Origin: Mesoterricola sediminis
GTDB taxonomy: Bacteria; Acidobacteriota; Holophagae; Holophagales; Holophagaceae
Direction of reading: 5' to 3'
Length of the DNA stretch: 64,000 nt
Assembly: GCF_030295425.1 (NCBI RefSeq)
Contig: NZ_AP027081.1
Span: 868,001 to 932,000 of the forward strand
Below the pieces are notes generated by a model. That model was not told where the DNA came from. It did not search any database and worked only from the letters and a program-made list of their open reading frames with translations. Made by a program: the position numbers and the translations under genes. Positions 923 to 4,013 of this stretch are shown here, piece after piece; position 1 is the stretch's first letter, and each line of letters starts with the position of its first letter.

Positions 923-1762
923 TCAGGGGAGGCCCGGGTCCGCGTCGGGGCCGCGGGGGAGGCGGGTGGCGTCGGTGAAGCCGGCCAGGGCGCCCCAGGC
1001 CCGGAGCTCGGCGAGGAAGGCGAGGGCCGCGGGGCCGTCCCGGAGGCCCAGGGCGGCCACCACCTCGCCGATGGGCTCGTTCTGGGCCCGCACGAGGAGG
1101 GCGGTGGCCCCCTCCGTGAGCTCCCGCCAGCGGACCGCGCCGTCGGGGCCGCGGGCCGCCACGAGGCGGCAGGCCCCCGGCGGGGGCTCGGGCCGGTCCA
1201 GGGTGGCCTCCAGCACCCGGTGGGCGTAGGCGAGCACCTGGGTGGCGGGGGCGAGGACGGCCACGTCGCCGGGACCGGGCGCCGGGCGGAGGTGCCCGGG
1301 CAGGGGCCCGTCGGGGCCGTGCTCCACCAGGAGCTTCACCAGTTCCGAATGGGCGAGCTCCAGCAGGGCGGGCCACCGGTCCTGGCCCCAGCCGGAGGCG
1401 GCGAGCCAGCCCAGGAAGGTGGCCGCCAGGTCCCGGTGGAAGGGCCGGACGCAGCTGCGGGAGGCGAGGAAGGCGGACCGGCATGCCTCCAGGGCCCCGT
1501 CCCGGGCCAGCAGGGCCAGGGTGAGGGGGTAGGCGTCCTCCAGGGGCTCCCAGAGGGCCGCCCGCACCCCGTCCCGGTAGAAGAGGAGGCGGGCCTTGAA
1601 GCGGTGGAAGGCCTCCCGGTCCGCCCGGGGCAGGCCCCGGGCCGCGGCGAAGGCCCGGGGATCGGCCTCGAAGGCGGCCGTGTCCGGGTCCAGGGCCAGG
1701 TCCGCCAGGGCCCGCTGCAGGGCGAGGACGGGGTCAGGCGGTGGCGGCGAGGGCCTGGTCAT
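923..1762 (-). CDS. DUF2063 family protein, BufC/HvfC-like partner of the MNIO enzyme
   Basis: Putative RiPP-recognition partner of the DUF692 enzyme encoded just upstream; DUF2063 proteins accompany MNIO enzymes in bufferin-type loci and are thought to present the precursor peptide. The protein is 279 aa. An N-terminal helical region (about 10-100) with FHRFKARLLFYRDGV and an EDAYPLTLALL stretch resembles the DUF2063 domain, and WPALLELAHSEL lies near the middle. The C-terminal half (about 190-270) looks like a small winged-helix-type domain. The start chosen is the ATG at 1762, which overlaps the end of the MNIO gene by 29 nt and gives translational coupling. The track-length frame upstream of this Met has no family similarity. 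Family assignment is fairly secure; exact role is inferred from neighbours. Confidence 0.8.
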   Translation of the reverse strand: MTRPSPPPPDPVLALQRALADLALDPDTAAFEADPRAFAAARGLPRADREAFHRFKARLLFYRDGVRAALWEPLEDAYPLTLALLARDGALEACRSAFLASRSCVRPFHRDLAATFLGWLAASGWGQDRWPALLELAHSELVKLLVEHGPDGPLPGHLRPAPGPGDVAVLAPATQVLAYAHRVLEATLDRPEPPPGACRLVAARGPDGAVRWRELTEGATALLVRAQNEPIGEVVAALGLRDGPAALAFLAELRAWGALAGFTDATRLPRGPDADPGLP

Positions 1763-2570
1763 AGGCCTCCTGCAGGCGGGCCCGCTCCGCCAGGAGCTCG
1801 GGCAGCGGGGGGATGTGGTTGTCCCGCTCCAGCAGGACGGGGACGGGGCGCCCGATGCGGGCCAAGGCAAAGGCCATGAGGTCCACCACCGGCAGGGGGA
1901 CCGGGGCGCCGTGGGTGTCCACCACGAGGCCCTCCCAGGTGTGGTGGCCGGCCACGTGCATCTGGGCGACCCGGTCCAGGGGCATGGCCTCCAGCCAGCG
2001 GAAGGGGTCGAACCCGAAGTTGAGGGCGTTGACGTAGACGTTGTTCACGTCCAGGAGCCAGCCCACGTCGGCCCCCTCCAGCACCTCGGCCAGGAACTGG
2101 GCCTCCGTCAGGTCGGCGTGGCCCAGCTCGCCGTAATAGGTGATGTTCTCCAGGAGGAGGGGCACGGGGAGGGCCGCCCGCAGGGCCCGGGACCGGGCGG
2201 CGGCGTGGCGGGCCGAGTCGCGGGTGAAGGGCATGGGCAGGAGGTCCAGGGTGGTGGCGCCGTCCACGGCGGTGAAGCAGAGGTGCTCCGAGTGCCAGGG
2301 GCTGCCCGTGGCCTCCAGGAAGGCGCCCAGCTGGTCCAGGTAGGTCCCGTCCAGGGGATCGAAGCCGCCCACGCCCAGGGAGAGGCCGTGGGAGATCACG
2401 GGGCGGCGGGCCAGGGCCCGCCGGATCAGGTCCGCCTCGGCGCCGCCGCCGCCGATCACGTTCTCCGGGGCGATCTCCCAGAAGGGCACGTCCAGGTCCC
2501 GGGCGGCGGCCTCCCCCAGGAAGGGGAGGCGCAGCCCGAGGCCGACGCCGGTCGGCGCCTCGCCGTTCAT
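1734..2570 (-). CDS. Multinuclear non-heme iron oxidative enzyme (MNIO, DUF692), BufB-like
   Basis: A TIM-barrel metalloenzyme of the DUF692/MNIO family (MbnB, TglH, BufB), which uses two or three iron ions to oxidise cysteine residues of ribosomal peptides. The 278-aa protein has the usual family length and metal-ligand motifs: SHGLSL (His61), WHSEHLCF (His93, Glu95, His96), LLLENITYY (Glu141), LLDVNNVYVNALNFG (Asp174), MHVAGHH (His205, His209), VDTHG (Asp218, His220) and LLERDNHIP (Glu248). The start ATG at 2570 overlaps the stop of the precursor gene as ATGA, and its own end overlaps the DUF2063 start by 29 nt. The three genes therefore form one cassette. Substrate is almost certainly the Cys-repeat peptide upstream; the product chemistry cannot be read from sequence. 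Confidence 0.92.
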   Translation of the reverse strand: MNGEAPTGVGLGLRLPFLGEAAARDLDVPFWEIAPENVIGGGGAEADLIRRALARRPVISHGLSLGVGGFDPLDGTYLDQLGAFLEATGSPWHSEHLCFTAVDGATTLDLLPMPFTRDSARHAAARSRALRAALPVPLLLENITYYGELGHADLTEAQFLAEVLEGADVGWLLDVNNVYVNALNFGFDPFRWLEAMPLDRVAQMHVAGHHTWEGLVVDTHGAPVPLPVVDLMAFALARIGRPVPVLLERDNHIPPLPELLAERARLQEAYDQALAATA

Positions 2571-2827
2571 GCGCCGTTCCGGGCGCAGGACCGCCCGCAC
2601 CGGTGCCCGCAGCGCGGGGCGGTGGCGCACCGGCGCCCGCAGCGGGGGAAGGTGGCGCAGCGGCGTCCGCAGCGGGGCCGCACGGCGCAGGTGCGGCCGC
2701 AGTGGGCCGCCAGGGTGTCCGGGGCCTTGGCCGCGGGCGTGATGTCCCGGGCGCCCAGATCGGGGTTGACGGGGAGGGTGGAGCCGGCGGCGAAGAGGGC
2801 CGCCGCGCCGAGAAGCTGGGTGATCAT
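2567..2827 (-). CDS. Exported Cys/Arg-rich repeat peptide, probable MNIO-modified RiPP precursor
   Basis: A small protein of 86 aa. Residues 1-20 (MITQLLGAAALFAAGSTLP) look like a short Sec signal or leader. Residues 43-86 hold nine cysteines (43, 47, 53, 57, 63, 67, 73, 77, 81) in tandem decapeptides: CGRTCAVRPR, CGRRCATFPR, CGRRCATAPR, then a degenerate CGHRCGRSC. Every pair is CxxxC with a five-residue spacer. The core is strongly basic (12 Arg). The ATG at 2827 has a GGAG ribosome site six bases upstream; the stop overlaps the MNIO start (ATGA). Exported Cys-rich precursors followed by MNIO and DUF2063 genes are the arrangement of bufferins, proposed copper-handling RiPPs, but I see no DUF2282-like or EGKC repeat sequence, so this looks like a different precursor type. 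Modification and metal binding are inferred. Confidence 0.8.
   Translation of the reverse strand: MITQLLGAAALFAAGSTLPVNPDLGARDITPAAKAPDTLAAHCGRTCAVRPRCGRRCATFPRCGRRCATAPRCGHRCGRSCARNGA
2585..2701 (-). repeat. Tandem 30-bp repeats encoding CxxxC decapeptides
   Basis: Within the precursor gene, about three and a half copies of a 30-bp unit (shared core on the plus strand: gtggcgca, cggcg, ccgcagcgggg) encode the CGRRCATxPR decapeptides. The two inner copies differ at only a few bases, which suggests recent duplication or homogenisation. Confidence 0.75.
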
Positions 2828-2854
2828 GGAGGTCTCCGGGCGAACTGCGCCGCG

Positions 2855-2981
2855 CCGGCCTCTGGGAGGCCGGAAGGACGGGCAGGAAGGGGATGCTGGG
2901 GCCGGCACAGGGGACGGGGCTGGGTCCAAGGCGGGTGCGCCGGGCGCTCCCAACTCTTCGGTCCCGCCCCTCCGGGACTGA
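2855..2981. other. Two hairpins in the leader of the RiPP cassette
   Basis: Between the preceding terminator and the precursor start there are two inverted repeats: 2855-2861 with 2867-2873 (7 bp, loop of 5) and 2958-2966 with 2973-2981 (9 bp with one wobble, loop of 6). They could form structures in the 5' leader of the minus-strand cassette. I recognise no known riboswitch or metal-regulator site here. Confidence 0.3.
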
Positions 2982-3010
2982 AGCGGAAAGGTGCGGAGAC
3001 CCGCGTACGC

Positions 3011-3036
3011 CAAAGGCCGCGGGCGAACCCGCGGCC
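3011..3036 (-). terminator. UUCG-tetraloop terminator of the exported repeat protein gene
   Basis: A perfect 9-bp stem (3015-3023 with 3028-3036) reads, on the minus strand, as a stem closed by a TTCG loop and followed by TTT. It lies 28 bases after the stop of the gene at 3065-3946 and separates it from the RiPP cassette. Confidence 0.75.
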
Positions 3037-3064
3037 GATGCCTGGGGCGGGATCGCCCCGCCGC

Positions 3065-3946
3065 TCACTTGCCCTGGACGGCCTTTTCGTCGGAGTCGGC
3101 CCGGGCCTGCACGGGCCAGTCGAGGACGGCCTGGTTCAGCCGCTCCCAGTTGGCCTTGAGGGGCACGCGCTCCGTGGTGAAGGCCATGCCCTTGGGCACG
3201 AGGCGGACCAGGTGGTCCGCGCCGGCCCGGTAGTAGGCGAGGCGGGTGCGCTGGCCCTTGCGGTTGGACTTGAACGCGAAGAGCCAGTGGCTGCGCGCGC
3301 CGGAGCCGGCGGACTTGAGGTCCTGGAGGTCCGCCGCCATGGTGGTGACGCCGTGGGCGCCGACGATCACCACGTGCCTGAAGCCGGGGCGGGTCCAGGC
3401 CAGCTGCTCCGTGCCGTTGCCGAGGAAGTCGCCCACCGCGGCCAGGAGGTCCCCGTCCACCTTGAGCTCCGTGTTGTCGGCCGGGATGCTGTCCTCGTGG
3501 GCGGGCGCCGTCCCTTCCGCGTGGCGCTCGGCCACGAAGCCCTGGACGGGCCGGCTGAGGCGGGCGCCGTTGGTGAGCAGGCCCCAGGCCTTGGTGCCCT
3601 CGGCGGCGTAGATCAGGTCGCTGAGGCCCGACCCGGTGAGGTCCACGGCGGCCACGAAGGTGCCGCCGTCCTCGCGGAGGTCCGGGAGGTCGGCGGAAGC
3701 GGCGGCGTCGGGGCCGGTGAAGACCGGCAGGTCGCGGGCGGCCGCGGCGCCGGGGCCCTCCACGCGGAGCTTGCCGGAGGCGAGCCCCGCGAGGCGCTGG
3801 AGGGGCGGGAGGGGATGGATGATGTCCTTCTTCTCGCCGCTCTCCTGCGGGGTGAAGACGCCGTAGGGCAGGGCGTGGGCGAGGGGGTCGGCCGACAGGG
3901 ACAGGCCCGCGGCCAGGGCCACGGGGGCCCAGTTGAAGCGATGCAT
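3065..3946 (-). CDS. Exported protein with FG-GAP/VCBS-like repeats, function unknown
   Basis: A 293-aa protein with a probable Sec signal peptide (residues 1-25, ending SADPLAHA). Two segments, VDLTGSGLSDLIYA and VGDFLGNGTEQLAW, resemble the Asp/Gly-rich loops of FG-GAP or VCBS repeats found in beta-propeller surface proteins, so a periplasmic or extracellular propeller is likely. No catalytic motif is visible. The ATG at 3946 is preferred over an upstream in-frame start because it has a GAGGAG ribosome site and begins the signal peptide. The gene is single, flanked by hairpin terminators. It sits directly upstream of the RiPP cassette but is separated from it by a terminator, so a functional link is only a possibility. 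Confidence 0.7.
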   Translation of the reverse strand: MHRFNWAPVALAAGLSLSADPLAHALPYGVFTPQESGEKKDIIHPLPPLQRLAGLASGKLRVEGPGAAAARDLPVFTGPDAAASADLPDLREDGGTFVAAVDLTGSGLSDLIYAAEGTKAWGLLTNGARLSRPVQGFVAERHAEGTAPAHEDSIPADNTELKVDGDLLAAVGDFLGNGTEQLAWTRPGFRHVVIVGAHGVTTMAADLQDLKSAGSGARSHWLFAFKSNRKGQRTRLAYYRAGADHLVRLVPKGMAFTTERVPLKANWERLNQAVLDWPVQARADSDEKAVQGK

Positions 3947-3978
3947 GATGGAACTCCTCGGAATGATTTTCTGAACGA

Positions 3979-4013
3979 AAGCGGCGCGCCACACCCTAGT
4001 GCGCGCGCCGCTT
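3979..4013 (-). terminator. Hairpin terminator after the prolyl oligopeptidase gene
   Basis: An 11-bp perfect stem (3979-3989 with 4003-4013) with a 13-base loop lies 36 bases after the peptidase stop. On the minus strand it is followed by tttcgttc, a weak T-rich tail. Confidence 0.6.

Follow-up and report, generated by a model that had tools for sequence, protein, structure and literature searches.

A three-gene cassette on the minus strand

The 64,000-nucleotide stretch of the Mesoterricola sediminis genome that we analysed (hereafter the window) contains, at 923-2827, a cassette of three genes that all lie on the minus strand. These encode a Cys-rich precursor peptide of 86 amino acids (2567..2827), identified as an open reading frame with orthologues that are full length in genomes G001 and G005 and partial in G002 and G003; an HvfB-like oxidative enzyme of the MNIO family (PF05114/DUF692) of 278 amino acids (1734..2570), identified by family models and alignment; and an HvfC-like partner of the PME1 class with DUF2063 and RRE-type parts, 279 amino acids long (923..1762), identified by Pfam and a structure model. 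An ATGA overlap joins the precursor stop to the MNIO start, the partner reading frame begins 29 nt inside that of the MNIO, and third-position GC values of 94, 98 and 97% agree with coding in all three genes (GC of the window, 71%). A preliminary description of this DNA had proposed three translationally coupled genes in the BufABC order (precursor, MNIO, DUF2063 partner); all three genes, their order and the overlaps expected of coupling were found, and the strand can now be added. The genome is a single contig of 4.52 Mb, and the cassette, at 0.87 Mb, carries its sole MNIO gene.

The MNIO matches PF05114 with 277 bits (E 1.3e-82). Among all MNIO family models it scores best against HvfB (251.6 bits, below the cut-off of 360 bits of the HvfB equivalog NF003818), followed by 235.1 bits for BufB, and it reaches none of the NCBIfam equivalog cut-offs. 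In a 28-sequence alignment, His61, His96, Glu141, Asn177, His205, Asp218, His220, Glu248 and Asp250 are invariant, and the equivalents of HvfB Asn175, Asp242 and His244 and of FonB Asp249 are present, so that the catalytic residues are retained, and so are those of the metal site, as had been claimed. We considered whether the absence of a His at residue 17 (GLRLPF) indicates a broken metal site, and rejected this because 3BWW and Pseudomonadota enzymes also lack that His. The partner scores 29.7 bits against DUF2063, just above the cut-off of 27.2. Its structure model (28 homologues, mean pLDDT 94) has as its best Foldseek matches 3DEE (NGO1945, the N. gonorrhoeae PME1 protein; E 6.9e-6) and 8HI7_A (TglI, the partner chain of TglHI; E 2.2e-5). 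As these are the best matches of the model, the assignment of the third protein as the partner, also made in the preliminary description, is firm.

No DoxX gene adjoins the cassette, in agreement with the reported absence of an adjacent DoxX-like BufD. The sole DoxX match in the genome lies unlinked at 3.86 Mb, and we therefore rejected DoxX as a distant operon member. This absence is ordinary, because the characterised fon cluster consists of A, B and C only. We identified no copper gene or known copper-regulated promoter beside the cassette, and a consensus scan found no sigma-70 promoter or terminator consensus near it. The intergenic region upstream of the precursor (2828..3064, minus strand) holds a stretch at about 2904-2930 (..AAACcCTGTCCCC in orthologues) that is partly conserved across five genomes; we treat it as a lead only, to a possible regulatory site. 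In the window, G005 and G001, the cassette has upstream of it a gene (3065-3994, minus strand, in the window; 54-79% identity) for a protein with a signal-like N-terminus. As this protein matches no Pfam family above cut-off, we left the gene out of the system; no homologue was found beside the Lys-type cassettes described below.

An arginine-rich precursor and its lysine-rich relatives

The precursor contains 9 Cys and 13 Arg, arranged as a hydrophobic, Sec-like N-terminus followed by a core of CGRRCAxxPR decapeptide repeats. The core runs from Cys43 (2570..2701, minus strand) as CGRTCAVRPR CGRRCATFPR CGRRCATAPR CGHRCGRSCARNGA, with four CGRxC pairs and one extra Cys, all nine Cys being followed by Gly or Ala. 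At a lag of 10 residues, 20 of 34 positions are identical, a value equalled by 0 of 20,000 shuffles (maximum 16), which confirms the Arg-rich decapeptide repeat noted earlier. A core dN/dS of 0.27-0.35 among the orthologues argues that the sequence of the core is maintained and, with the presence of orthologues at the same locus in other species, that the precursor is a real gene. The predicted pI (10.6-11.2) and charge (+10 to +12) are high in the three full-length orthologues. The N-terminus of the window precursor lacks a basic n-region (MITQ), and its predicted export is based on its hydrophobic appearance and its homology to the Lys-type leaders.

This precursor matches none of the Pfam and NCBIfam precursor models. 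Neither it nor its orthologues match the HvfA models NF050137 and NF050188, which recovered a control precursor from locus L051 at E 7e-43, and no EGKCG repeats were found in them; DUF2282 of Pfam (Buf1 precursors) and the 6/12-Cys BufA2 of NCBIfam (Buf2 precursors) likewise fail to match the window precursor. The earlier statement that the peptide belongs to neither the DUF2282 nor the EGKC type thus stands for the core, which fits no curated model, but the peptide is not wholly unrelated to known sequences. A profile built from the three full Arg-type precursors (window, G001 and G005) finds, via the N-terminus, 22 Lys-type precursors in the family (E 1e-4 to 8e-3), every one of them just upstream of an MNIO gene. 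Leader and enzyme are therefore homologous to those of the oxazolin-like line, while the core differs.

We placed these relatives by an MNIO scan of 84,980 species, one genome per species, which returned 38 other Holophagaceae or Acidobacteriota MNIO loci at 58-73% identity. Leaving out contigs that start at the MNIO gene, nearly all have an upstream precursor with a similar leader (e.g. MITKLIGAATLFAAGSLMAG...) and Lys-rich, GSCGK-like repeats. The Lys-type cassettes (Geothrix and relatives; L003-L037 and others) share with the window the homologous leader, an MNIO 58-70% identical and the gene order. They differ in their core of D/E-G-S-C-G-K repeats, rich in Lys, Asp and Glu, in keeping the GLRR motif of the enzyme in nearly all cases, and in occupying a different locus in the same genus. 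Two of the GSCGK precursors of Geothrix and its relatives (L003-L039) were run against NCBIfam and hit no model above cut-off; the pattern is consistent across the family.

Arg-type precursors were found in five genomes, all of one genus. They are full length in the complete genomes of the window species, G005 (core RRCGGRRCASVPRCGGRRCAGVPR...) and G001 (core LCGGRRCAGVPRCGGRRCAGIPR...), and partial in G002 and G003, where they end at contig edges. Close homologues lacking any MNIO gene, raised in the preliminary description as an objection to its reading, did not turn up: all three complete copies precede an MNIO gene, and the other two are the truncated ones. In these two draft genomes, contigs break inside or at the Arg-type repeat (starts of L002/L085, ends of L102 and L103), so Arg-type precursors may be under-counted in draft assemblies. 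The DNA pattern of the core was not found outside the genus among 396 Acidobacteriota genomes, nor on viral contigs; plasmids searched at the protein level with the G001 precursor gave no match, and phages yielded no MNIO relatives. We rejected the profile matches outside the genus, in G075 and G076: they are unrelated tandem repeats (SCGYGFASVP), and neither genome encodes an MNIO.

The Arg-type cassettes of the window, G005, G001 and G002 share a conserved neighbourhood, that is, the same locus in four species. Beside them lies a gene that, from its protein, we take to be lysyl-tRNA-synthetase-like (84% identical in G005). A separate Lys-type cassette is retained in four of the five Arg-type genomes, all but that of the window species, which has the Arg-type alone; the Lys-type cassettes of G001 and G005 sit at another locus, mutually conserved. 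In an IQ-TREE phylogeny of 62 MNIOs, the four recovered Arg-type enzymes group together in a single clade (100/99) within the Holophagaceae part of the tree. Its nearest groups are the enzymes of the Lys-type cassettes and two enzymes linked to a radical-SAM protein; within the clade, the branch of the window MNIO is the longest (0.56). These data are most simply explained by an old duplication, after which the genus retained the Arg-type and the window species lost the Lys-type copy.

Two further arrangements were seen among the relatives. A hybrid cluster is present in L119 (G005:C1:526000-535000, about 529.3-531.6 kb, minus strand) and in L036 of Geothrix fermentans (about 3.4-6.6 kb), with genes for a GSCG-type precursor, a radical SAM/SPASM protein, an MNIO, a DUF2063 protein and a YceI-like protein. 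The SbtM thio(seleno)oxazole maturase is among the best models for the radical SAM protein (111 bits, below cut-off), whose gene occurs in 2 of 77 family genomes, adjoining an MNIO gene in both. One precursor may here be the substrate of two maturases, one dependent on oxygen and the other not. A different MNIO cassette is found within the genus at L087 (G004:C197:10871-14659), where the precursor weakly matches BufA2 (29.5 bits, cut-off 60) and the MNIO has Asp at the position of FonB Phe250, as reported for the BufA2 (Cys-Lys) type.

Class assignment and enzyme-substrate fit

The cassette has the features of a captophorin, a PME1-dependent MNIO RiPP cassette: a PF05114 MNIO with its metal and catalytic residues, a Cys-rich precursor directly before it and a DUF2063 and RRE partner directly after it. 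The MNIO score, the tree and the precursor N-terminus place it in the oxazolin/captophorin (HvfABC/FonABC) lineage and not among the strict bufferins. Of the earlier proposal of a distinct bufferin-like family, an MNIO-type RiPP cassette in BufABC order therefore survives, whereas the bufferin placement does not, as the HvfB model outscores BufB and the enzyme is nested in a Holophagaceae clade with precursors of the GSCGK-repeat (EGKCG-like) type. The Buf1 (DUF2282) and Buf2 (BufA2, Cys-Lys) bufferins do resemble the cassette in gene order, DUF2063-RRE partner and Cys-rich precursor with a signal-like N-terminus, but their precursor types do not fit and the window enzyme lacks the Asp at the Phe250 position.

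With the Lys-Cys (EGKCG) captophorins fontiphorin (FonABC), oxazolin (HvfABC) and gonophorin (NgoABC), the cassette shares the precursor-MNIO-DUF2063/RRE order, the Sec-like N-terminus, the repeated Cys with a small residue after each and the conserved metal site. It differs from them in its CGRRCAxxPR repeat, with almost no acidic residue at position 1 and with Pro at position 2 of the motif, and in its enzyme, as set out below. The CxxxxC precursor family of the MNIO landscape paper (PMC12452194), which we compared by its published description, also has signal-peptide precursors with paired Cys and a DUF2063 partner. However, the window pairs are CxxxC (CxxxC and CxxxxC in the orthologues), and neither the Lactamase_B_2 gene of about half of those clusters nor the DoxX of their core lies beside the window cassette. 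The same paper reports hundreds of unclassified signal-peptide precursors, and individual Arg-type members may already be in its supplementary tables. This kind of system is thus known and abundant, and has recently been unified as captophorins. As far as the tools and literature examined show, what is new is the Arg-Pro repeat substrate, confined to a single genus among the genomes searched, the coexisting Lys-type paralogue and the matching change in the enzyme.

That change concerns residues modelled in FonB (PMC13097082). There, the substrate Glu at position 1 of EGKCG lies between Arg15, thought to exclude positive charge, and Arg16, thought to favour Glu, and Phe250, beside the catalytic Asp249, meets positions 3 and 5; FonB accepts Arg at position 3 as well as Ala at position 5 and refuses Pro at every position tested, and mutagenesis has shown that its GLRR-motif residue Arg16 affects the tolerance of substrate charge. 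In our alignment, nearly all Holophagaceae enzymes and every Pseudomonadota enzyme sampled have Arg at the Arg16 position (the second Arg of GLRR); each of the four Arg-type enzymes has Leu or Pro there (Leu15 in the window MNIO, codon at 2526..2528, minus strand). The Phe250 position is Asn in the Arg-type enzyme. The loss of Arg16 counts as a single clade-level event, and L035, L039 and L091 also lack that Arg, yet have no Arg-type precursor. On the substrate side, each of the 27 Cys in the three full Arg-type precursors has Gly or Ala as its next residue (about 1e-4 by chance for each precursor) and 24 are preceded by Arg or His, with an acidic residue at position 1 for one Cys and Pro at position 2 for 11. 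Set against the tolerance of FonB, the Cys of G-R-R-C-A obeys its rules and that of x-P-R-C-G breaks the Pro rule.

Proposed pathway, alternatives and significance

We propose, with a probability of about 0.72, that the cassette encodes a RiPP pathway of the captophorin type (oxazolin/fontiphorin-like), in which the substrate has become an arginine-type one and the product likely binds Cu(I). It would probably be an old, specialised paralogue of the family's Lys-type cassettes that makes 5-thiooxazoles (-4 Da per Cys) for copper. We infer the chemistry, the reacting cysteines, export, the metal and the physiological role by analogy with HvfBC (PMC13419390) and FonBC (PMC13097082). The DUF2063-RRE partner (C) would hold the precursor by its N-terminal leader and allow the Fe(II)/Fe(III) state, and a Cys thiolate would bind the iron of the mixed-valent MNIO (B). 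O2 would then drive the four-electron oxidation of core Cys to 5-thiooxazole; each Cys would lose 4 H, giving a mass shift of up to -36 Da with all nine sites modified. Sec would next export the peptide, which would bind or sequester a soft metal, with Cu(I) as the most likely one. 5-Thiooxazole is what every characterised PME1-dependent MNIO cassette makes, and binding of copper is general among the products (PMC13097082). Against this reading stand the 11 of 27 Cys with Pro at position 2, given that FonB refuses Pro: an enzyme without the second Arg of GLRR, facing a substrate without an acidic residue three positions before Cys, would have to tolerate a Pro placed two residues ahead of Cys or act on just the second Cys in each pair. 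The single-event nature of the Arg16 loss and its occurrence in L035, L039 and L091, the scores below the NCBIfam equivalog cut-offs and the lack of a recognised copper gene or copper-regulated promoter beside the cassette also count against it. A bolder version, in which the Arg-type is a functionally separate metallophore class with changed specificity (Arg16 lost, Pro accepted), no cross-processing with the Lys-type in one cell and an arginine-lined product for a different metal, metal-oxyanion or stress, seems to us doubtful.

The Pro contexts also bear on an alternative that we consider unlikely, in which the machinery works but installs a different modification or modifies half of the Cys, the free thiols forming CxxxC metal sites or disulphides. 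The alternation of x-P-R-C-G with G-R-R-C-A and the departure of the pocket from FonB at the Arg16 and Phe250 positions would fit it, but every Cys keeps a small following residue, the catalytic Asp and iron ligands are unchanged, and a product other than 5-thiooxazole would be without precedent among characterised PME1-type MNIOs. It is quite improbable that the core reflects compositional drift alone, from Lys to Arg in a GC-rich genome, with an ordinary oxazolin equivalent as product. The base composition of the window and its genes and an MNIO without a single Lys are what such drift would give; however, the Lys-type paralogues of G001 and G005 keep 21-22 Lys with 1-2 Arg, and exchanging Lys for Arg accounts neither for the new repeat period and Cys spacing nor for the lost acidic residues and the added Pro. 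Because four of the five Arg-type genomes also keep a Lys-type cassette, GC bias fails to explain the arginines, and we rejected it as their source.

Two further readings concern the role of the peptide and the state of the locus. Its basic character (charge about +10) would suit a secreted cationic peptide acting mainly on another target, such as membranes or nucleic acid, with the MNIO merely tailoring it; we find this highly improbable, as a strong positive charge (+8 to +9) is found in the Lys-type paralogues too, the products of related systems handle copper, and we recognised no gene for immunity or export next to the cassette. We give even less credence to a decaying copy, in which substrate and enzyme drift out of function. 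The long branch of the window MNIO and the lack of another MNIO in its genome point that way, but the low core dN/dS, the retained Cys, the invariant metal-site residues, the absence of any stop or frameshift and the same locus in four species argue for maintenance.

On the proposed pathway, the four genomes that carry both cassette types, together with a window species that carries the Arg-type alone, form a natural experiment on the choice of Cys by MNIO enzymes, since the position at which all four Arg-type enzymes have changed is the one shown by mutagenesis in FonB to affect tolerance of substrate charge. The main text of the published MNIO surveys we examined makes no mention of Acidobacteriota. 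MNIO metallophores, which have been studied mostly in Pseudomonadota, would extend to an Acidobacteriota family.
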